27,502 bases of DNA from a virus: positions 1-27,502 of IMG/VR virus record IMGVR_UViG_3300047548_000688, one strand, 5' to 3'. A program made the translations under genes and the position numbers. Below, piece after piece: positions 2,707 to 24,311 of the stretch (position 1 is its first letter; each line of letters starts with the position of its first letter). Under the pieces are notes generated by a model. It was not told where the DNA came from and ran no database searches. It saw only the letters and a program-made list of their open reading frames with translations.

Positions 2707-2948
2707 GCATATTGTATGTTTTTAACAAATTCTTTTAATCGGTTGCTGTCACTCCATGATATATTCACATCATCACATAGAAGAATGGTCCAGAAGCCTT
2801 CTATCTCATCGCTTAACTCTTTTGTTATTAGATAGATAGGAGCAAACTCCTCATCGGTGCTAATCATCAATTCATAAAAATAGGATAGCCCTACTGTTTC
2901 CTTCTTCTCGAAGCCTAGTTGTTCTAGGATTTCATCTGTGATTCTCAT
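2691..2948 (-). CDS. Hypothetical protein, 85 residues
   Basis: Not recognised. Acidic, with a predicted beta-rich middle (VGLSYFYELMISTDEEFAPIYLI) and a C-terminal helix (RLKEFVKNIQYACANK). A -7-like element TACATTTG lies 14 bases upstream of the ATG, and the promoter of the NinG-like gene overlaps its 3' end. Confidence 0.65.
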   Translation of the reverse strand: MRITDEILEQLGFEKKETVGLSYFYELMISTDEEFAPIYLITKELSDEIEGFWTILLCDDVNISWSDSNRLKEFVKNIQYACANK

Positions 2949-2961
2949 GGTGTTTTATTTC

Positions 2962-2969
2962 CAAATGTA
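2962..2969 (-). promoter_or_regulatory. -7 element (TACATTTG) upstream of the 85-residue gene
   Basis: The minus-strand octamer TACATTTG matches TAnnTTTG and sits 14 bases from the start codon at 2948. No TTG is seen at the right distance upstream, so this is a weak or activator-dependent candidate. Confidence 0.35.
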
Positions 2970-2991
2970 TAATTTTGGAAGCCGCCTAAAT

Positions 2992-3201
2992 TCATTTTTT
3001 ACCTAACTTTTCCTCAACCTCCTTAAAGATATCTCTACCTTCCATAAGGTCTTTAAGAGCCTTGGTGTAACCACCTGCGAACAGGGCTACGAATAACTCT
3101 GAATGTTCTTCAGGCACACCTAATTTATCAAGCTCTTGATGAGCAATGTTTAGGATGATTTCATTGAGGAGCATATCCTCAGATTGTGTGTTGTTTTCCA
3201 T
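2992..3201 (-). CDS. Hypothetical protein, 69 residues
   Basis: Not recognised. A mostly helical, acidic small protein (LLNEIILNIAHQELDKLG, then LFVALFAGGYTKALKDLMEG). Its start overlaps the end of the MazG-like gene by 23 bases, so the two are probably co-translated in one leftward operon. Confidence 0.65.
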   Translation of the reverse strand: MENNTQSEDMLLNEIILNIAHQELDKLGVPEEHSELFVALFAGGYTKALKDLMEGRDIFKEVEEKLGKK

Positions 3202-3757
3202 ATATTATATTTTCTAAATTAGGTTTCTTATAATTACTTGACTTCATAACCTTACCGGCTTCGTTATATATCGGTTTACCATTTTCAAGTTTCGACATAT
3301 TCGAATCGTGTATCTCGTTGAATAACGCCTCCAAATGATCCTGTAGACCATGACGAATAGCCATTCCAAGAAGAACGTATAGCATATCGCCAATAGCGTC
3401 AGCAATACCAACAAGGTCATTTGCAACACAAGCATCGCCATATTCGCCAAGTTCTTCACGTAGCAGGTTATATTGAAGTTCATACTCTTCCTGTTTAATA
3501 AGTTGTGGTTTGATTCTAATAGGTAGGTTAAATGCTCGGTTAAAACCCTCTACCTTATGTGAAAGGTTTTGAAGGTTATCCATCGTGCTTCTACGCTTGA
3601 GATAGAGTGCTGAATCAAGCAGTTCCTCATAAAGATGTTGTTCCCAATTCATAGGTGATAAATCTGTTCTGTCTACGGTAGTGCCGTATTCAGCCCTTCC
3701 TTTTTCCTCGCGGCTTTCGAGGTCCGCGATTACTGCTTGCAGTGTTTTGCTGTTCAT
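3179..3757 (-). CDS. Double MazG-like NTP pyrophosphohydrolase
   Basis: A 192-residue protein starting at the ATG reading MNSKTLQAVIADL; an earlier in-frame ATG at 3847 would overlap the resolvase gene by 158 bases. The N-terminal third (RAEYGTTVDRTDLSPMNW, then YEELLDSALYLKRR) resembles the half-domain found in phage MazG-like proteins. The second part has LLREELGEYGDA, supplying the ExxE-type acidic residues, and DAIGDMLYVLLGMA, supplying the second D/E cluster, then the phage-typical ending SKLENGKPIYNEAGKVMKS. Such all-alpha pyrophosphohydrolases cleave (d)NTPs or alarmones and keep nucleotide pools favourable to the phage. Overlaps rusA by 68 bases. Substrate unknown. Confidence 0.75.
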   Translation of the reverse strand: MNSKTLQAVIADLESREEKGRAEYGTTVDRTDLSPMNWEQHLYEELLDSALYLKRRSTMDNLQNLSHKVEGFNRAFNLPIRIKPQLIKQEEYELQYNLLREELGEYGDACVANDLVGIADAIGDMLYVLLGMAIRHGLQDHLEALFNEIHDSNMSKLENGKPIYNEAGKVMKSSNYKKPNLENIIYGKQHTI

Positions 3758-4085
3758 ATTGTATGGTGTAAAATTCAAAACTCCAGAACTCTTCTCCTTT
3801 AGGGACAAGAATCTTCTTAACGTAAAGTTCCATGATAATCTTATCATTGAATCCTAAACGCTTTTGTAGGACATCTATTGACATCTTGATACAAGAGTCG
3901 ACATCCTGAGCTCTATTGCTAAATCCATATTCTAATCGAAGTCCGATAGGTCCTTCGGGTAATTTCTCCTTCTTTATGATGGCCATAGAGTGGGCCTCAA
4001 AATCTATATACTTTTTAGTCTTAAACCTCCTACCACCGCGATATGCCGTGTTAATTGATATTGGCTTGACGTCTACTCTGTTCAT
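3690..4085 (-). CDS. RusA-like Holliday junction resolvase
   Basis: A 131-residue protein of RusA size. N-terminal KPISINTAYRGGRRFKTKKY matches the RusA start region (P-S-x-N-x-x-Y then a basic stretch). The segment QDVDSCIKMSIDVLQKRLGFNDKIIMEL corresponds to the catalytic D-x-D-N-x-x-K-x-x-x-D-x-L region with the later D, although Ser replaces the usual Asn after the second Asp. RusA cuts four-way junctions during phage recombination and genome processing. The start overlaps the upstream stop by ATGA. The C-terminus (SNRGPRKPRGKRKG) is basic and probably binds DNA. Confidence 0.8.
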   Translation of the reverse strand: MNRVDVKPISINTAYRGGRRFKTKKYIDFEAHSMAIIKKEKLPEGPIGLRLEYGFSNRAQDVDSCIKMSIDVLQKRLGFNDKIIMELYVKKILVPKGEEFWSFEFYTIQYEQQNTASSNRGPRKPRGKRKG

Positions 4086-7904: not shown

Positions 7905-8013
7905 TTCTATTTAGTTGTTTGTATTTACGGAATATGGCGCGTATGTGATGTACGTTTAAACGTACACCACTATACACTAAGCCTTCAATTTCTGTTAGGA
8001 TTTCGTCTATCAT
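7888..8013 (-). CDS. Small protein downstream of recT, 41 residues
   Basis: Short frame MIDEILTEIEGLVYSGVRLN, then HHIRAIFRKYKQLNRNESNT. Its ATG overlaps the recT stop (ATGA), which is this operon's usual coupling, and its end overlaps the next gene by 17 bases. Helical and amphipathic; no family recognised. Confidence 0.5.
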   Translation of the reverse strand: MIDEILTEIEGLVYSGVRLNVHHIRAIFRKYKQLNRNESNT

Positions 8014-8822
8014 AGGTCATTAAAGATTTCGTCTTTAACCTCGTGCTTCTCAACGAAGTCTACATCCTGTATTTCTACACCACCATCTTCGTTGATGACT
8101 GCTCTACTACCTGTAGATAGTTTGTCATCTACCTCAACAGCCATTGCTATTTCGGGTACACCCTGCTTTGGAACTGTCTTGAGGCATTGCTTGATAGCCG
8201 CCTTCTTGTACATCCAATCGGCTACATCAGTACCATTATTGTAGGGACTTGATTGAGAGCCAGCACCCTTGCTAATCTTCTTGATAGCATTAAGTTGATT
8301 GGCGTCAAGCACCTCAATGATTGGGTCAGCACCCTCAAGTTTAACAATACCATACGTGCAGTACACCTCCTTCTCACGATCCTGTTCAGGTGTTCTGTTC
8401 ATAATAGGTGTGTGTTCAAGGATGACATCCATACCACGTGAGTAGCGGAACAGACCTGCCTCAACCTCATCGGTGTATACAACACCTGCATATACCGACT
8501 TAACTCGTGGGTTACGATAGGCAATTTCTACTAAGCCCTTATAGCCTACTTGGAATTGAGCCTCATTACCATAAGGAATGATGTAGGAAAATCCAGAAGG
8601 GGTGTTGAACGGAAGTTTTAACTCCGCTGATAAAAGCACAGCCGCAAATAAAGAACCTCGGTCACAATTAAGTAGTTTAGGTGTCTTTTTTACTGCTGTC
8701 ATAACAGACATAGCGAACTCGTCTGCTGTGATACCATACTTGTTACCAACTAACTTGGTGATGGTTTCTTCATAAGCCTTAACTTGGCTCTCGAACTTTT
8801 TGATTTCTACTGCTTTGTTCAT
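8010..8822 (-). CDS. recT: RecT-family single-strand annealing protein
   Basis: A 270-residue protein with the RecT core: SVMTAVKKTPKLLNCDRGSLF (39-59, the helix followed by the conserved C-x-x-x-S), AVLLSAELKLPFNTPSGFSYIIPYG (61-85), AQFQVGYKGLVEIAYRNP (88-105) with the family's Q-x-G-Y-K-G signature, and DWMYKKAAIKQCLKTVP (201-217). RecT pairs complementary single strands made by a partner exonuclease. The RecE-like gene lies 2 bases upstream in the same operon, giving a complete annealing recombination pair that can serve genome replication and repair. The acidic C-terminus may contact other replication proteins. Confidence 0.93.
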   Translation of the reverse strand: MNKAVEIKKFESQVKAYEETITKLVGNKYGITADEFAMSVMTAVKKTPKLLNCDRGSLFAAVLLSAELKLPFNTPSGFSYIIPYGNEAQFQVGYKGLVEIAYRNPRVKSVYAGVVYTDEVEAGLFRYSRGMDVILEHTPIMNRTPEQDREKEVYCTYGIVKLEGADPIIEVLDANQLNAIKKISKGAGSQSSPYNNGTDVADWMYKKAAIKQCLKTVPKQGVPEIAMAVEVDDKLSTGSRAVINEDGGVEIQDVDFVEKHEVKDEIFNDL

Positions 8823-8824
8823 AT

Positions 8825-9679
8825 TTAGAATTGATTAGTTAACTCATCATTCTCTGCCTTCATATAGGCAAAGTCGGGTAGGTCCATATCCATAACACCT
8901 GAGCTATGGCTGGATAGTATATCGTATTGCGCTGACCAATCGTTAGTGTCTACGCAACGCTTGTGCAGGTTAAGTAGTGATTGACAGGTAATCCAACCGA
9001 CATTGATTGCTGATTCAGCCAACATAAAGACTGATGCAGCGTATGGCGGTTCCTTCTCTACTACAATGAATAGGAAGCGTTTGAATGTGTCCTCGCCGTG
9101 AATAGCGTTCAACCCATTAATATAGAAAGCCGCCTGTTCGTGATAACGATAGTTCCATATAGCACGCTGAAAATCGGTAGGGTGTGCAGATATGGTTGTC
9201 TTTAGGTCAAACACAAGTCTTGATGCTGTGTTGTATCCGTCAGGCTTACCCTTACACATAAGTCCAGTCATTGGATCTGTCCAAGATATTCCGTTCTCAA
9301 TGGTTGCTGATGCAAGAAGTTTCTGCACGGCAGGGATACGAAGAACATTGTCAGCCATACCCTTTGCTTGGTTGTAGGTGTCAATGTCAATTACCATACG
9401 TCCGTGTCTTGCCGCCTCTTCAACGATAACCTGCTTCCATAGTTTGTTCTCTGAGTTGCGGAAGTCAGCATCACGATTAGGACGCTTATCAACATCAAGG
9501 ATAGTATAATCATTATCCATATTGTGTGGTTCAAGAACAAGCGTGTGGACAAGAGTACCGAGTTTTTGCGCTTCGGTTGAATCCTTCTTGTTGTCTTGGT
9601 TCCATTTGAAATGGAGTGGGCTTTTGTGATAAAGCTTTAGTGAGGAGTAGTTAACCCCTTCAAGTTCAAAATAGTTCAT
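8825..9679 (-). CDS. RecE-like PD-(D/E)XK exonuclease
   Basis: A 284-residue protein with the RecE/PDDEXK_1 motif set: helix motif GTLVHTLVLEP (41-51, His45), ISWTDPMTGLMCKGKPDGYN (131-150) with the metal-binding GKPD, VFDLKTT (156-162) carrying the catalytic D-x-K, and YRYHEQAAFYING (177-189) corresponding to the Q-x-x-x-Y motif. Such enzymes degrade one strand of duplex ends 5' to 3', giving single strands for RecT next door. Compared with E. coli RecE (866 residues), only the nuclease domain is present, as in many phages. Confidence 0.88.
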   Translation of the reverse strand: MNYFELEGVNYSSLKLYHKSPLHFKWNQDNKKDSTEAQKLGTLVHTLVLEPHNMDNDYTILDVDKRPNRDADFRNSENKLWKQVIVEEAARHGRMVIDIDTYNQAKGMADNVLRIPAVQKLLASATIENGISWTDPMTGLMCKGKPDGYNTASRLVFDLKTTISAHPTDFQRAIWNYRYHEQAAFYINGLNAIHGEDTFKRFLFIVVEKEPPYAASVFMLAESAINVGWITCQSLLNLHKRCVDTNDWSAQYDILSSHSSGVMDMDLPDFAYMKAENDELTNQF

Positions 9680-13667: not shown

Positions 13668-13970
13668 TTAGAATGGTGCGTGAATACTATCTGCGCAGTC
13701 CTTGCACACGCTACATTCGTAGCCGTGGTCATACCGGCAATCTTTATGCTCCATACAAGACTCACAAGTGTCATTATATGTAGGCTCATCTTTGAAGTCC
13801 CACGGATTGGGTGAATACTCGTCGGTTTCATCATTGATTTTAACCTTCTCATACTTGAGCGTATCGTAGTTGTACTTGTAGTCCCAATCATCCCAATCAT
13901 CGTTGTCGTTGAATGGGCGTGATAGTGGACGCGCCAGAAGTTGCGCCCTTGTAAATTTTAGTGCCGCCAT
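13668..13970 (-). CDS. Acidic protein with Cys-rich C-terminus, about 100 residues
   Basis: The coding frame is clear in its C-terminal 80 residues: Asp/Tyr/Trp-rich (NDNDDWDDWDYKYNYD) and then CESCMEHKDC and CSVCKDC, which look like a small zinc-binding ribbon. The start is uncertain: the first good ATG (MAALKFTRAQ) lies 74 bases inside the amidotransferase gene, and no ATG is found nearer its stop in this frame. The Cys pattern recalls the N-terminal domain of the nearby amidoligase, suggesting a common function or origin. Confidence 0.5.
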   Translation of the reverse strand: MAALKFTRAQLLARPLSRPFNDNDDWDDWDYKYNYDTLKYEKVKINDETDEYSPNPWDFKDEPTYNDTCESCMEHKDCRYDHGYECSVCKDCADSIHAPF

Positions 13971-14523
13971 AATCATAGTAGCGTGATGCCTTGTATGTGG
14001 TATTGCTGAACCAACAGCCCAAGTCCCACACACCCATATCCTCGTTGACAATGAATGCCTCGTTGTCGGTGTTAAGGAATAGTAGTTTGGACGAGCCGAT
14101 ATATTCCTGCACGAGGTCATAGATAGCATCGTTATGTATCCAATCGGCAGGTAGTTTTTGTAGTACCTCACGATTGAACATATACGTGTCGCTGAATTCG
14201 GTATGTTTCGGAGCCGCCGATATAATACCGTTGTGTACAAACCCCCACTTGTCATTAACAATAAATGGGTGGCAGTTCGTTAGGTTAACCTTGCCGTGTG
14301 TTGAGATACGGAAGTGGATAACGATCTGGCTTGTTCTGTGTTGCTGACGCACATTGTGGTAGTGGTCATAGAAGGAGTCGAAGTTAGTCATCTCCTTGTG
14401 GGTAGTTAACTTGCCGTCAACTAAATAGAGCATACCTGCTCCGTCAGTATTGTTTTCCCAACAGGTCTTAAGAACCTTCTTTTTAAGGGTTACGTTATTA
14501 GGGTTTAAAATTGCTATACACAT
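13897..14523 (-). CDS. Class II glutamine amidotransferase
   Basis: A 208-residue Ntn-hydrolase domain. Cys2 (MCIAI), exposed after Met removal, is the nucleophile that frees ammonia from glutamine. NTDGAGM (25-31), HFRISTHG (70-77), NCHPF (83-87) and HNGI (97-100) are the family's glutamine-binding and oxyanion-hole segments, as in GlmS/PurF N-terminal domains. There is no synthase domain, so it must pass ammonia or glutamate chemistry to a partner; the amidoligase gene lies 14 bases upstream in the same operon. Such pairs are known in phages and were proposed to modify peptides, proteins or cell wall. The target is unknown. Confidence 0.85.
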   Translation of the reverse strand: MCIAILNPNNVTLKKKVLKTCWENNTDGAGMLYLVDGKLTTHKEMTNFDSFYDHYHNVRQQHRTSQIVIHFRISTHGKVNLTNCHPFIVNDKWGFVHNGIISAAPKHTEFSDTYMFNREVLQKLPADWIHNDAIYDLVQEYIGSSKLLFLNTDNEAFIVNEDMGVWDLGCWFSNTTYKASRYYDYGGTKIYKGATSGASTITPIQRQR

Positions 14524-14537
14524 AGTCTTATAAATTA

Positions 14538-15755
14538 TTAGTTAATATCTGTTGATTCGCCATTAAGGTCAGCACCATTGTACATATTGCTGTACTCAAC
14601 AAAGAGGGCAACCTTGTTAAGCATCTTGTCCTCACCTACCGCCTTGCTGATATGTTGGTGAAGTGTAGACTTGCGGTCACATAGCATACGTAATACATCA
14701 CGCTCCGACTTACCGAAGTTGCGTACCATAATACGTATCAGTTCAACTCGCCAGTATAAATTCTCTACCGACCTAACAGCAGGGAAGATGCGGAACTCTA
14801 TCGTAGTGTCACGCACATACACCGCTGAGTACTTGTCACGATTGAGATACTCGTGCTTCATCTTAGCCTTGCAGTAGTTGACCGTGAGTCGCTTCTGATA
14901 CAGAGAGTACAGCATAGGGAGGAAGCCGCTGATACCTTCGAACAATTGCTCGGTGGTATATAACTTACTACCTAAATGTATATGACCGCCGCATCGTGAG
15001 CCGTGCTTGGCGTTGATGTGGTCACGCAACAAATTGGAAGCCGCGATATCATCCTCGTGTAGTTTATCAAAGAGATTGTACACAGGTGAGATGAGCTCGA
15101 AGCCTGAATAGGTGTCAAGTGAACTATCGTTCTCCTTTGTCCAACCATCGGGCAGGTCATCGTGATAGCAAGACTTGCGCACATCCTTATCCTCCTTCTC
15201 TACCTCAAACCCCATTGTCCAGGGGGTAGTCTTATCAACTCGCCACGAACGGCTACCGCTATGGTATGATGCAAGATAGTCATCGTCATCCTCATCCTCA
15301 TCGGGTGCATCGTCAACGTGACGATAGTCGCCTACCGATTCGTAGTAGTAGACATCGTTGTAGTTAGCGACATCGCTGTTACGATAGTATGTGCCGTCAC
15401 ATTCTATATAATCATTGTCATCACGGAGAAAGTAACCCTCTTGATAACGATTGACATAACCCTCAAGGCATTCATCTTCATACGCATGCACCTCCTCCCA
15501 TTCACACCACACAATATTCAAAGCACGTTGCTCATCTTCGTGGAAACTGTCACCGCAATGTGTGTAGTGAATATCGTCATCCTCGTGACAGACATTGCCG
15601 TGTGTTAGCGTTTGAACACCTGCATCTCCGTGTTCATACCATTCGCCTTGGTATTGACCGATGGTGAATTTTGAGCAGTTACTGCGTAATGCTTGACTGC
15701 CGTTGTACAGATCTACTATCTCTTCAACCTGTACGTTTGAATTGTTTTCTGACAT
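14538..15755 (-). CDS. Amidoligase_2-type COOH-NH2 ligase with acidic Cys-rich N-domain
   Basis: A 405-residue protein in two parts. Residues 40-150 are acidic and aromatic with repeated short units (VCHEDDDIHYTHCGDSFHED, YIECDGTYYRNSDVANY) like the degenerate treble-clef repeats seen in front of phage amidoligases. Residues 178-400 carry the ligase motifs MGFEVEKE (181-188), GFELISP (218-224), CGGHIHLG (255-262) and TIEFRIFPAVRS (318-329), the acidic and His residues that bind ATP-magnesium in this glutamine synthetase-like superfamily. It would form an amide bond between a carboxyl and an amine. Next to a class II amidotransferase. Substrate unknown; virion protein, host protein or cell-wall peptide are options. 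Confidence 0.8.
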   Translation of the reverse strand: MSENNSNVQVEEIVDLYNGSQALRSNCSKFTIGQYQGEWYEHGDAGVQTLTHGNVCHEDDDIHYTHCGDSFHEDEQRALNIVWCEWEEVHAYEDECLEGYVNRYQEGYFLRDDNDYIECDGTYYRNSDVANYNDVYYYESVGDYRHVDDAPDEDEDDDDYLASYHSGSRSWRVDKTTPWTMGFEVEKEDKDVRKSCYHDDLPDGWTKENDSSLDTYSGFELISPVYNLFDKLHEDDIAASNLLRDHINAKHGSRCGGHIHLGSKLYTTEQLFEGISGFLPMLYSLYQKRLTVNYCKAKMKHEYLNRDKYSAVYVRDTTIEFRIFPAVRSVENLYWRVELIRIMVRNFGKSERDVLRMLCDRKSTLHQHISKAVGEDKMLNKVALFVEYSNMYNGADLNGESTDIN

Positions 15756-19418: not shown

Positions 19419-19463
19419 TGATTATTTTCCACTAAAGGGCTGATTATGGTGATTATTTTCCAC
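19419..19463 (+). repeat. 14-bp direct repeat TGATTATTTTCCAC
   Basis: Exact copies at 19419-19432 and 19450-19463. The second continues to TTTTCCACA, a relaxed DnaA box (TTWTNCACA). TTTTCCACTAAAGG at 19425-19438 also recurs at 18326-18339 in the iteron region, linking the two non-coding stretches. Confidence 0.55.
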
Positions 19464-19659
19464 AATGGCTATAGCAGTTGTCCGCTTATATCGGACAGGT
19501 GTTATAAATAACATCTAACTCATAAGATGTCATTAGAGGGATAAGACGAAGCGGCTATGCTTCTTATAAGGGAGAGGTTTGCCATTTCACCAAAACCACA
19601 TTATAGGACTATTTTAATATGCAAAAAGGCTCTATGGAAATAAAATGACTACTAAACCA
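19464..19659. other. Non-coding stretch with small hairpins
   Basis: No gene seen on either strand. Holds short inverted repeats GTCCG/CGGAC (19479-19494 region), ACATCT/AGATGT (about 19513-19532) and GAAGC/GCTTC (about 19548-19564), which suggests a structured transcript or protein sites. Confidence 0.35.
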
Positions 19660-19667
19660 TACTTTTG
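19660..19667 (+). promoter_or_regulatory. -7 element (TACTTTTG) of the sRNA candidate
   Basis: TACTTTTG matches TAnnTTTG; the -33 position has no clear TTG. The predicted start is near 19674. Confidence 0.4.
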
Positions 19668-19673
19668 TGTGGG

Positions 19674-19739
19674 ATAGCAGTCATATAAGCCTCATGGCTG
19701 CATAAGGAGTTGAAACACGGACATAATCGTGTGTTTTTG
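19674..19739 (+). ncRNA. Candidate small RNA, about 65 bases
   Basis: After the -7 element, GCAGUCAU pairs with AUGGCUGC (8 bp, one G-U pair, 9-base loop) at about 19677-19701, then an AAGGAG-containing single-stranded link, then ACACG/CGUGU (19715-19719 and 19728-19732) followed by GUUUUU, a weak terminator. The order promoter, hairpin, link, terminator is that of bacterial sRNAs. No coding frame of note. Confidence 0.4.
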
Positions 19740-19740
19740 C

Positions 19741-19797
19741 TCGTAACAATTTTACCTATGTTTTTGTTACGATAGGTCAACCTATATTCTTACCTAT
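19741..19797. repeat. ACCTAT repeat cluster with 9-bp stem
   Basis: TCGTAACAA (19741-19749) and TTGTTACGA (19764-19772) are perfect inverted repeats. The loop holds ACCTAT (19753-19758), which can also pair with ATAGGT (19772-19777) just outside. Further ACCTAT copies lie at 19780-19785 and 19792-19797. Four copies in 45 bases suggest an operator; the fold suggests an RNA pseudoknot. Confidence 0.5.
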
Positions 19798-19813
19798 GTT
19801 GAGATTTGTCAAA

Positions 19814-20011
19814 CTATCCCTTGACAATCTCCTTGAGTTGTGTAAGGATGTCTGTTTGTGTTTGTCCCCAAAACATATCGCAGGTTCCGTCATCTTTGAT
19901 TGGCGGCTTTGAAAAATACGCCTGAGCGTATTCATCAGCCGGTGCTGTAAATCGGTAGCACTTTTCTTTGTGGGGACAATTTGTCCCCTCGCATTTACTT
20001 ATATCAGCCAT
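19814..20011 (-). CDS. Small Cys-rich phage protein, 65 residues
   Basis: Reads MADISKCEGTNCPHKEKCYRF, then PADEYAQAYFSKPPIKDDG and CDMFWG. Four cysteines and a His fit one zinc site. The pattern KC-G--CP-K--CYR-TA---Y-QAYF--PP---G-CD-F recurs in small proteins of many phages; function unknown. Overlaps the methyltransferase gene by 8 bases. Confidence 0.65.
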   Translation of the reverse strand: MADISKCEGTNCPHKEKCYRFTAPADEYAQAYFSKPPIKDDGTCDMFWGQTQTDILTQLKEIVKG

Positions 20012-21017
20012 GTAGTTGTTCTATTGTTTTAAAAATCTCTAATGCAACCTGTGGAACGATTGCGTTACCGTAACCCTTTATTGATTCTTGTCGCCATTTA
20101 GAAAAGGTAATTCCGTCCAGTTGGGTGGGAATCCCATCATCTCCGCTACAAATCGGGGATTGAGTTGGGAACCTTTCGAATTGTATTCCGTGTCCGTATA
20201 CTGATAGGCGTTTCTCATCATATTCTCCCTCGCCTTGTTTTTGCCTATTGATGTCGGAGGGTATGCGCCCTTCCAATCCGTTGCTGTTGGTGTTGGCAGT
20301 ATTCCCTTGTCTAACATTCTCGTTAGTGTCATTGAGTGCATTGAACCTTCTGATGTCTGTGTGCTCTTCATATTCGCCGATGCGTTGGTGCTGTCGAATG
20401 CTGTCGGTGTTGGAAGCATCCCCCTTTGGTAGATGAATCCCGACTGAACCTCTTGAGCCAGTGTTCCGCTGTTCCCGAACTTCTGTTCCTTCTTGCTCAG
20501 GTTCTCGCTGTAGGAGTCCATTGCGCTTGGTGTTTTGAGCAACAAACCAGATTCGTTCTCTTTTGTGCGGAGCACCGACGCCTGCTGCTGCAAGTAGTAC
20601 CGGTTGTACTTCGTACCCTTGATTTTCCAGGTCAAGGCACACTTCTTCGAACACCAGCCCTTCTGACCAATTAGTGATTCCGCGAACATTTTCGCCCACG
20701 ATGTAGGTTGGTTCAATTTCTTGAATTGCTCTAAGCATATGCGGCCAGAGGTGTCGCTCGTCCGCCTTCCCAAGTCGCTTACCTGCGTGTGAGTATGGTT
20801 GGCATGGAAATCCTCCTGTGAGGATGTCAATTGTTCCTCGGTGAATAGAGAAGTCTGTCTTTGTGATGTCTTCATAACTGATTGAGTTTGGCCAATAATG
20901 ATTTAATACTTTTCGTGGGAAGGGCATCCATTCACAATGGAATATGTTGTCCCATCCCATCCATTCGGCGGCTAGGTCAAAGCCACCGATTCCGCTGAAT
21001 AGCGATCCGTGTTTCAT
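20004..21017 (-). CDS. dcm: DNA cytosine-C5 methyltransferase (orphan)
   Basis: A 337-residue C5-MTase with SAM-binding motif I FSGIGGFDLA (7-16), catalytic motif IV GGFPCQPYS (68-76, Cys71), motif VI ENVRG (109-113), motif VIII APHKRERIWFV (149-159) and motif X GYGNAIVPQVALEIF near the C-terminus. The stretch between motifs VIII and X is low-complexity and polar, with four NT/DT-S/N-type repeats (NTKRNGLLQ, NTDSIRQHQ, DTNENVRQG, NTNSNGLEG) where the target-recognition domain should be. No restriction enzyme is nearby, so it probably protects phage DNA or regulates it. A second long frame runs inside it. Confidence 0.9.
   Translation of the reverse strand: MKHGSLFSGIGGFDLAAEWMGWDNIFHCEWMPFPRKVLNHYWPNSISYEDITKTDFSIHRGTIDILTGGFPCQPYSHAGKRLGKADERHLWPHMLRAIQEIEPTYIVGENVRGITNWSEGLVFEEVCLDLENQGYEVQPVLLAAAGVGAPHKRERIWFVAQNTKRNGLLQREPEQEGTEVREQRNTGSRGSVGIHLPKGDASNTDSIRQHQRIGEYEEHTDIRRFNALNDTNENVRQGNTANTNSNGLEGRIPSDINRQKQGEGEYDEKRLSVYGHGIQFERFPTQSPICSGDDGIPTQLDGITFSKWRQESIKGYGNAIVPQVALEIFKTIEQLHG
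20078..20875 (-). CDS. Gene nested in dcm in another frame (PTPTA/LNPRFV protein)
   Basis: A 265-residue frame wholly inside dcm on the same strand. It does not look like a chance shadow: it has SLIGQKGWCSKKCALTWKI and KGTKYNRYY (about 67-94), two copies of a PTPTA-x-D unit (MLPTPTAFD 153-161, ILPTPTATD 192-200) and a C-terminus LNPRFVAEMMGFPPNW (238-253). These blocks resemble proteins encoded next to or over C5-MTase genes in other phages. The PTPTA units lie over the NT/DT repeats of the MTase. Function unknown; it could partner the MTase in target recognition. Start at the ATG 20875 is provisional. Confidence 0.6.
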   Translation of the reverse strand: MKTSQRQTSLFTEEQLTSSQEDFHANHTHTQVSDLGRRTSDTSGRICLEQFKKLNQPTSWAKMFAESLIGQKGWCSKKCALTWKIKGTKYNRYYLQQQASVLRTKENESGLLLKTPSAMDSYSENLSKKEQKFGNSGTLAQEVQSGFIYQRGMLPTPTAFDSTNASANMKSTQTSEGSMHSMTLTRMLDKGILPTPTATDWKGAYPPTSIGKNKARENMMRNAYQYTDTEYNSKGSQLNPRFVAEMMGFPPNWTELPFLNGDKNQ

Positions 21018-22068: not shown

Positions 22069-22602
22069 TTACACTCTGTTTCTCTTTAACTTTTCTCTGA
22101 TTTTGCTCTTCTTCTGCTCCGCCTTGTTTACGTGCTTGACGAACTGCTCTGAAGGAACGTGGTAGCCAATCTGTTTGAGATCTATGACCACCTGGTTTAT
22201 CTTGGTTCTGAAATCCGCATTGTACATCAGGTAGTTCTCTACCGTGTTCAAGTGGTGAATGACCGAACTGTGGTGCATCTTTAGCGTTTCCGAAACCAAT
22301 CGGTGCGTGCAGCCTAATGTGGTTTTAAGAATCCACATATATGACCTCTTCGCGTCAATGATGTTGCTATTTCTCTTCCTTGACATAATCTCCTCCGGGC
22401 TTGTATTGAACACAGCCGCACAAGATGACAGGGCTATGTTTATAAATTGGTCGGGGTTGTCTGAAATGTCAAGTGTGTTGTTAATGCCCTCAAGCATCCG
22501 CTTTGCGTCCGACTGTAGTGTGTCAGTTTCGCCATTTACAATTGTTTCCAAAAATTGAATAATTAAATGTGGTTTAACACATGATGTAAGGTCGGATATC
22601 AT
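22069..22602 (-). CDS. DnaA domain IV-like DNA-binding protein
   Basis: A 177-residue protein whose residues 60-125 match the DNA-binding domain of DnaA: AAVFNTSPEEIMSRKRNSN (62-80), IIDAKRSYMWIL (81-92), then CTHRLVSETLKMHHSSVIHHLNTVENYL (98-125), where MHHSSVIHH corresponds to the DnaA signature G-R-D-H-S-T-V-x-H. There is no AAA+ ATPase domain. It could bind DnaA-box sequences on phage or host DNA to start or divert replication. Overlaps the primase-helicase start region by 4 bases. A basic C-terminal tail (AEQKKSKIREKLKRNRV) adds DNA affinity. Confidence 0.75.
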   Translation of the reverse strand: MISDLTSCVKPHLIIQFLETIVNGETDTLQSDAKRMLEGINNTLDISDNPDQFINIALSSCAAVFNTSPEEIMSRKRNSNIIDAKRSYMWILKTTLGCTHRLVSETLKMHHSSVIHHLNTVENYLMYNADFRTKINQVVIDLKQIGYHVPSEQFVKHVNKAEQKKSKIREKLKRNRV

Positions 22603-24311
22603 AACTCAAATTCCTGTTGGTTAAATTCGGTGCTAAGATAGGAAGTTTTGTTAAGTTTTCCAACTATATAATATCTGCCGCTTGGAATATCGTATTGCAT
22701 CTCACGGCTACCCTGACGTCCCCAATGTTTGAACTTCACCTTCTGCACGAATATCTCAGGCATTGAACCACCATCCTCGAAGAAGTGACGATACACCGAT
22801 ATACCATTGTCGCACTTGTTGTAGAAGTGGGCAGAGCCAGCCATATCATAAAGCGTAGCCACATTGTACTGCTGTGTCTTTGGGTCCCTTGACATCTTGG
22901 TCGGGTGGGCAACTACGAAGGCGTGTACGCTATACTTTCGGCAGAAACTGATTAACTTATCTAACTCCTTGGAAATGTGTTGGGTTTCCGAGGTCTGATA
23001 ACTATGCTCCAACTTGTTCCACGCGTCAATGATGATTGCATTGATACCATACTTCTTTACAAGGCTCTTTGCGTGTTCAATTATGCTATCAAGGCTATTG
23101 TCCTCTTCAGGCGCTATGTAGAAGAAGTTATCGCGGCAGTAGTTCATTGCTGTAACAATCTCGCGGTCATTCATATCATTAAACGCAGTACCTACCAACT
23201 TACTTGCAATCTTTGAGAAGTGCAGTTGAAGGGGATAATTCTCCGGTGAGAAGATTCCAAATCTCCATCCGTGTCTAACCGATAGGTCCACCATTATCTG
23301 ATCTAGGAATTCCGACTTGCCGTGGTTAGGTATACCTGTAACTCCTGTAACATATCCAGGTACAAAGGTTAGCAGTTCATTGAACGCGTCAATTGATATA
23401 TCACATCCAGGCTTTAACCCTTCGCGTCTTAATCTCCAAATGTCATCCGCTATACCGTCTATTGTAACGATTCCCTCTAATGGATATTCTTCGGCGGCTT
23501 CTAATGTTTCGGGTAGCATCAATGGGTCCGTGATTAGAAGTTCATTAGCATCCTTCTTACCAAAGAACGAAATCTTTTTACATCTATCCTTCCCAAATCT
23601 TCTCGCAAGTTCCTCTTGAAGAATGCGACCCGGTTCGTCATCGTCTGTTGCAAGATAGATTACCTTAACGTCCTCAAATCGGTCAATGCAGTTGTCAACG
23701 TATTGTAGACGATTGTTTTTTGACGCTCCGTTAGGAACTGAAACAACAGATGTTATTCCAACCTGATGATAAGCCATCGCATCTAATTCACCTTCCGTTA
23801 CGACAACAAAATCTTGACTAATGCTATCTAAATTGTAGAATACAAGTTCAGCATCCTTTACAAGTCGGAAGTTCTTCTCGGCATCACGGTACTTGATGTT
23901 AATTAACTCTCCATCGCGGTAGTAGTTGAACATAATGCAGTTCCTTTCCTGCGCAACCTGTGGAAAGAACATTCTTCCGCTTTCTACATTGAAGTCAATC
24001 AACGTAGATGAATTGATCCCGCGTTCCTTAAACCAATTAACTATCTTATCAGGTAGTGCGGTTGGATTGGATGTGGGTACAGGACGCGTGTATCTTTGAA
24101 CCTCTTGATCCTCCGACTTACGTACAAAGCGTGCGTTACAGTGGTTACAATGTCCAACACCTTCTATAGTGTTGAAACTCATACACTTAACATTCTTCTT
24201 CTTCCTATCGCCAGAGCATACAGGGCAAGCCATACTATTCTCGCCGCGTCTATCGGCATTGATGATGTATGTCTTTCTATTTTCGAGGTTATAAATCTTT
24301 TCCGATGCCAT
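22599..24311 (-). CDS. Primase-helicase (T7 gp4/Twinkle type)
   Basis: A 570-residue protein in three parts. A zinc-binding domain has Cys29-x2-Cys32 (ACPVC) and Cys55-x2-Cys58 (HCNHC). The TOPRIM primase core has VVVTEGELDAMA (169-180, Glu173) and ATDDDEPGR (221-229). The DnaB-like RecA helicase domain has Walker A GIPNHGKS (326-333), FGIFSPEN (351-358), Walker B AIIIDAWN (425-432) and the VVAHPTK segment (466-472) with sensor His. This order and length fit bifunctional phage primase-helicases that unwind the fork and prime lagging-strand synthesis. It lies between the DnaA-like and initiator-like genes. Confidence 0.92.
   Translation of the reverse strand: MASEKIYNLENRKTYIINADRRGENSMACPVCSGDRKKKNVKCMSFNTIEGVGHCNHCNARFVRKSEDQEVQRYTRPVPTSNPTALPDKIVNWFKERGINSSTLIDFNVESGRMFFPQVAQERNCIMFNYYRDGELINIKYRDAEKNFRLVKDAELVFYNLDSISQDFVVVTEGELDAMAYHQVGITSVVSVPNGASKNNRLQYVDNCIDRFEDVKVIYLATDDDEPGRILQEELARRFGKDRCKKISFFGKKDANELLITDPLMLPETLEAAEEYPLEGIVTIDGIADDIWRLRREGLKPGCDISIDAFNELLTFVPGYVTGVTGIPNHGKSEFLDQIMVDLSVRHGWRFGIFSPENYPLQLHFSKIASKLVGTAFNDMNDREIVTAMNYCRDNFFYIAPEEDNSLDSIIEHAKSLVKKYGINAIIIDAWNKLEHSYQTSETQHISKELDKLISFCRKYSVHAFVVAHPTKMSRDPKTQQYNVATLYDMAGSAHFYNKCDNGISVYRHFFEDGGSMPEIFVQKVKFKHWGRQGSREMQYDIPSGRYYIVGKLNKTSYLSTEFNQQEFEL

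Follow-up and report, generated by a model that had tools for sequence, protein, structure and literature searches.

Introduction

M.EcoHK31I (YGGCCR), which Lee et al. are said to have described in 1995, reportedly has its beta ORF nested in the alpha ORF in another frame, the alpha protein being of about 309 aa. This C5-cytosine DNA methyltransferase (C5-MTase) consists of two polypeptides, and the passages of PMC3404938 that deal with it assign motifs I to VIII and X to the large subunit and motif IX to the small one; the enzyme has also been employed as a naturally split enzyme (PMC3439449). M.AquI (CYCGRG) is likewise a C5-MTase in two chains (PMC3404938). It is split within the variable region, and its small subunit carries motif X as well as motif IX, whereas in the pair described here motif X belongs to the larger protein, alpha. 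In E. coli Dcm and M.HhaI, motifs IV, IX and X and the target-recognising domain (TRD) are all in one chain, unlike in the present pair, whose alpha core is homologous to these enzymes and whose beta motif IX resembles that of Dcm. The multispecific phage C5-MTases SPR, phi3T, rho11 and H2 are single chains too. Several TRDs in a row have been described in phage C5-MTases (Wilke 1988, as cited in a passage of PMC8936443).

Here we analyse a viral sequence of 27,502 nucleotides, hereafter the window, in which a long frame had been predicted to lie within a cytosine methyltransferase gene. The same proteins in the same layout are already in databases: they are phrog_363 (alpha) and phrog_1008 (beta), and Paenibacillus phage and K1ind2 records have an annotation for each of the two ORFs. 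The two are labelled independently of each other, as 'DNA methyltransferase', 'Mte8-like' or hypothetical, and we found no split-enzyme reading among these entries. A literature search did not find a general description of the nested pair, and the passages found of the Edwardsiella phage eiAU paper mention the MTase and not the nested ORF.

Results

A methyltransferase gene of the window contains a second gene

The original prediction of a 265-codon frame open inside the MTase gene on the same strand proved correct, and the frame starts with an ATG codon and lies in the +1 frame relative to the enclosing gene (Table 1). The enclosing gene, alpha, matches Pfam PF00145 (2e-45), TIGR00675 (2e-39) and phrog_363 (3e-71), and its PF00145 domain, motif I and catalytic Pro-Cys of motif IV identify it as a C5-MTase. 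The nested gene, beta, matches phrog_1008, 'DNA methyltransferase', over nearly its full length (3e-27); family searches assigned it to no Pfam or NCBIfam family, and PDB sequence searches with beta, a beta profile and the beta C-terminus matched nothing meaningful. Both frames are intact in the window, with all catalytic motifs present.

Beta comprises an LTWK block that is conserved, a middle that varies and a C-terminal LNPRFVAEMMGFPPNW. The blocks that had been singled out in the nested frame, ALTWKIKGTKYNR, two LPTPTA-x-D units and LNPRFVAEMMGFPPNW, are all present and conserved in homologues, and beta has a third, degenerate unit of the same kind, LKTPSAMD. The PTPTA units do overlie the NT/DT repeats of the MTase frame, as had been noticed, because the NTNSN repeat of the alpha frame is the PTPTA repeat of beta read out of frame.

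Table 1. Features of the nested methyltransferase locus in IMG/VR record IMGVR_UViG_3300047548_000688, positions 1 to 27,502. Coordinates are those of the whole window, except in the last row, which refers to locus L230.
Feature	Position	Strand	Remarks
Alpha, C5 cytosine-specific DNA methyltransferase ORF, 337 aa (codons)	20004..21017	-	motifs I-VIII and X
Beta, nested ORF, 265 aa (codons), ATG start	20078..20875	-	+1 frame relative to alpha; entirely within alpha
Beta start codon ATG	20873..20875	-	formed by TAT-GAA (Tyr-Glu) of alpha
Alpha motif I (SLFSGIGG)	20982..21005	-	upstream of beta; columns invariant or near-invariant
Alpha motif IV, catalytic Pro-Cys (GGFPCQPYS)	20790..20816	-	overlapped by beta N-terminus; P71, C72, Q73, P74 invariant
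Alpha motif VIII (HKRERIWFV)	20541..20567	-	from sequence; conserved columns
Alpha linker, residues 168-305, between motifs VIII and X	20103..20516	-	best read as out-of-frame shadow of beta
Alpha motif X (KGYGNAIVP)	20052..20078	-	almost wholly downstream of beta; G317, N318 invariant
Beta conserved block CALTWKIKGTKYNR	20600..20641	-	W74, L81, W83 invariant (25 diverse homologues)
Beta tandem module 1 (LLKTPSAMDSY...)	20420..20542	-	module analysis
Beta tandem module 2 (MLPTPTAFDST...)	20303..20419	-	module analysis
Beta tandem module 3 (ILPTPTATDWKG...)	20165..20302	-	module analysis
Beta motif IX-like block LNPRFVAEMMGFPPNW	20117..20164	-	pattern and alignment with E. coli Dcm
L230 alpha frame with TGA codons	around 2820-4040		

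A stretch of about 380 bases directly downstream of the MTase genes (window 19436-19813) has no plausible long gene. Elsewhere on the minus strand, genes for RecT and a DUF3799 PDDEXK-like protein (window 8010-9679) and for a DnaA_C-type protein adjoining a Toprim/DnaB-like primase-helicase (window 22069-24311) constitute a replication and recombination module typical of tailed phages. An amidoligase-like protein (PF12224, weak) is encoded beside an ORF starting MCIAILNPNN (window 13897-15755, minus), whose product resembles a class II glutamine amidotransferase, and the two are possibly a phage peptide or cell-wall modification pair. At window 13668-14523 (minus), an ORF with a TTG start at 13668-14261 shares several hundred bases with 13897-14523, read in a different frame; the C-terminal half of this ORF is rich in Cys and might be a gene of its own that starts further in.

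Both reading frames are under purifying selection

In bacteria and phages it is rare for one long gene to be nested in another on the same strand with selection acting on both, and the nested frame might be open and similar among homologues only through the constraint that the alpha protein places on the DNA, since overlapping frames can inherit a seeming conservation and loci chosen by BLAST are biased towards open frames. When the alpha protein was kept, its synonymous codons were shuffled and the stops in the beta frame were counted, the 300 shuffles of the window averaged 8.0 stops and never gave 0, which is the number observed. Across 88 sequences, 0 beta-frame stops were observed against 7.3 expected per sequence, and the other alternative frame (+2) had 18 stops on average. 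MTase homologues of the window's type contained no stop codons in the beta frame.

Codon-position diversity of alpha outside beta is normal (0.18, 0.13 and 0.44 at the three positions). At alpha residues 166-210 the fastest position is alpha position 1, which is beta position 3 (0.58 vs 0.42 and 0.43), and residues 151-190 show an ordinary coding pattern when read in the beta frame. We then expressed substitution rates in the two frames, from 33 independent pairs, relative to doubly silent changes. Over motifs IV-VIII the rates were 0.10 for alpha-only and 0.29 for beta-only changes, and over the linker 0.59 and 0.17, respectively, these ratios being approximate because few changes are silent in both frames (about 57 and 37). 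The relative rates in both frames therefore indicate purifying selection on both proteins, the outcome of a check that the original prediction had proposed. Along the linker, the rate per opportunity of changes that are nonsynonymous in alpha and synonymous in beta is 3.4 times that of the converse changes, and the amino-acid diversity of alpha is 0.50-0.71 over most of the linker, with alpha codon position 1 the fastest. Selective dominance switches along the gene, from alpha over motifs I-VIII to beta between motifs VIII and X.

The synonymous shuffles, the codon-position diversity and the two-frame substitution counts led us to reject both a chance ORF and mechanical conservation. Constraint from alpha as the whole cause is barely credible, given that shuffles that preserve alpha still yield 7-8 stops, that the beta frame is the slower-evolving one over the linker and that loci fetched through alpha show the nested beta equally often (see below). 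The nested gene is almost certainly real, conserved and selected.

A conserved start codon favours separate initiation of beta

In 59 of 88 sequences the ATG of beta is at exactly this position, and most of the others have it no more than a few codons away. In loci of Bacillota, Pseudomonadota and the phages of both, an SD-like site is present at 20 of 34 first beta ATGs compared with 65 of 568 other ATGs of alpha (11%; p=3e-10). Bacteroidota and window-like loci showed no SD enrichment at beta starts, as would be expected, starts without an SD being usual for Bacteroidota. The conserved ATG together with the SD-like sites favours separate initiation over frameshifting. In a programmed frameshift the ribosome would move from the alpha to the beta frame and make one chain with motifs I-VIII, the modules and motif IX, which, as far as the sequence tells, is the order of single-chain enzymes. 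We consider this very improbable: any sensible shift point is preceded by about 110 codons over which beta is already open and selected, and beta has its own conserved ATG, with SD-like sites in SD-using hosts, and the fusion would be without motif X, which is conserved downstream in the alpha frame.

The nested pair recurs across bacterial phyla and their phages

A protein search with the nested frame, suggested as a check on it, recovered hundreds of homologues, comprising 58 phage records, 511 viral-contig stretches and 269 bacterial genome stretches, in addition to phrog_1008. In every one of the 88 viral and phage loci found through beta, alpha encloses it in the same +1 frame. In a set of loci fetched by the first 70 alpha residues only, which avoids selection on beta, the nested beta is present in 79 of 80. 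The remaining locus (L156:1967-2872) has an apparent indel, a sequencing error or a natural knockout, that breaks alpha and beta together, as expected because both frames share the sequence. Among bacterial loci, 73 of 80 are nested in +1, one is broken and in six the alpha frame itself is interrupted. TGA codons are present in five of these six, and in L212 as well, and L249 is more degraded. Nesting in +1 holds for 228 of the 230 non-redundant pairs, and in none of the 230 does beta occur without alpha.

The same layout is found in enterobacterial and Komagataeibacter phages, an Enterobacter plasmid, E. coli prophages and the gammaproteobacterial-class genomes found; E. coli K-12 dcm has no nested beta. 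Beta is carried by about 3% of the sampled genomes in two bacterial classes (10/274 and 8/295), and the nested pair recurs across Bacteroidota, Bacillota, Pseudomonadota and their phages.

In six Bacteroides/Parabacteroides loci (L212, L213, L214, L229, L230 and L236), the alpha frame has 2-3 in-frame TGA codons, never TAA or TAG, and several of them are at conserved Trp positions (LAAE-TGA-MGW, FSR-TGA-RQ, FRG-TGA-RG). Beta is fully open in these loci, and the divergence of alpha is still third-position-rich. About 40 kb of sequence surrounding three of the six contained no suppressor tRNA, and the neighbouring genes gave no clear pattern of TGA-to-Trp recoding; the TGA codons may reflect recoding, readthrough or decay. 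These few broken relatives, the six with TGA and L156 with its single indel, are what would speak for the window locus being a decayed or non-functional MTase, an extremely improbable reading with both window frames and all catalytic motifs intact and the family under purifying selection.

The C5-MTase motifs are divided between alpha and beta

Pattern searches in the 230 pairs found motif IX in 218 betas and in one alpha, an evident chance match, whereas motif IV was found in 224 alphas vs one beta and motif X in 216 alphas vs five betas. The block LNPRFVAEMMGFPPNW of beta aligns with motif IX of E. coli Dcm, LTPRECARLMGF, with 14 of 2000 shuffles equally good. Judged by pattern and alignment, beta, the putative small subunit, holds motif IX.

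AlphaFold2 modelled the alpha core (residues 1-167) and the C-terminal helix with fair to high confidence, including helices 306-336 with fair confidence, and left residues 168-305 essentially unstructured (pLDDT about 25-45, almost no secondary structure). Foldseek matched the alpha model to M.HhaI (1.7e-13) over about 166 of 327 columns; in the PDB sequence search M.HhaI was matched by alpha residues 5-161 only, and the PDB matches of alpha cover only half of M.HhaI. With this core-only match of alpha and motif IX in beta, alpha looks like the large domain of a C5-MTase and beta, by elimination, like the small one.

The locus is very probably a naturally split C5-MTase with beta as its subunit. 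Counting against this reading are the AlphaFold2 model of beta alone, which is too poor for a structure search (pLDDT 47), the absence of a PDB sequence match for beta and the six Bacteroides/Parabacteroides loci with TGA in alpha and an intact beta. These would suit a beta that is a real overprinted protein of another kind, for example one that regulates or inhibits the MTase, or a DNA-binding protein of de novo origin with no relation to it, as would the lack of a significant structure or Pfam match for beta. We regard such a protein as unlikely, since beta has the Dcm-like motif IX that is missing from alpha and never occurs without alpha in the 230 pairs, and since the PHROG annotation and the precedent of M.EcoHK31I (PMC3404938) point to a subunit.

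Beta contains tandem modules that may recognise the target

The middle of beta comprises 1-5 tandem units that start with [L/M/W]PTPTAxD and have a median length of 39 aa (quartiles 35-43, 174 betas); the beta of the window has three. These modules are shuffled, with one unit family recurring at different positions and with different neighbours across loci. By analogy with SPR, phi3T, rho11 and H2, whose TRDs are likewise in tandem, the beta modules may be target-recognising; unlike in those enzymes they would reside in a separate chain, and beta would be only putatively multispecific. It had been proposed that the nested frame could tie specificity to a partner protein. The data support such a tie, but the recognition region seems to be the nested protein's own, and the MTase frame is there a poorly constrained linker. 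In the light of the model, the 'recognition region' of alpha is best read as a mostly unstructured linker, an out-of-frame shadow of beta. That beta is a modular specificity determinant has, in our estimation, about an even chance of being right.

The predicted TRD of M.EcoHK31I counts against target recognition by beta, as the passage of PMC3404938 that treats it places it in the large subunit and not in the small one; here, in contrast, selection and modelling point to beta.

Discussion

The original prediction considered two proteins evolving in one sequence, in a methyltransferase specificity region, to be unusual. Both proteins are indeed selected, but the arrangement has a precedent in the two-polypeptide C5-MTase M.EcoHK31I (PMC3404938). 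The pair has the features of that type, with motifs I-VIII and X and without motif IX in alpha, motif IX in beta and nested genes, and it shares with M.EcoHK31I the two polypeptides, the same division of motifs and, reportedly, the nesting of the small-subunit gene. Two differences are that beta here has three modules and is longer than the M.EcoHK31I beta is reported to be, and that M.EcoHK31I is part of a restriction-modification system, whereas no restriction endonuclease partner was found among the window genes scanned with Pfam, which are part of the window ORFs in a record that may be a fragment. The pairs found that would come nearest to M.EcoHK31I are those of enterobacterial phages and prophages. 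Given this precedent, the pair is best filed as a phage member of that known kind, matched by description. What we did not find described before is the breadth of the family, its absence from Pfam and NCBIfam, the shuffling of modules and a recognition region that would be coded by beta and not by alpha.

We propose that two fully overlapping genes encode one split C5-MTase. Alpha would be the large catalytic domain, with SAM binding, the Pro-Cys nucleophile and motifs I-VIII and X. Beta would be made independently, by initiation at a start codon of its own that lies within alpha and is read in the +1 frame, and would supply motif IX and a target-recognition part made of 1-5 tandem modules of about 39 aa. 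The two chains, presumably both needed, would assemble into one enzyme whose sequence specificity beta would set, and with which the phage may methylate its own DNA against host restriction.

A wider proposal, which we hold to be evenly poised between right and wrong, is that such split MTases are widespread and mostly unannotated, that all their target recognition resides in the out-of-frame nested gene, that the exchange of modules of about 39 aa, open in two frames, drives specificity and gives tandem, multi-specific betas, and that what is annotated as the 'recognition region' in the catalytic protein is no more than an out-of-frame shadow. If true, this would correct the assignment of the TRD to the large subunit in enzymes of the M.EcoHK31I type. 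With no Pfam or NCBIfam family for beta and many records that list alpha only, many 'DNA cytosine methyltransferase' entries probably represent just one of the two halves of an enzyme. For such entries specificity would be sought in the wrong protein, and an alpha cloned without its beta may be inactive. The nested pair would also offer a direct test of how modular specificity evolves under a two-frame constraint.
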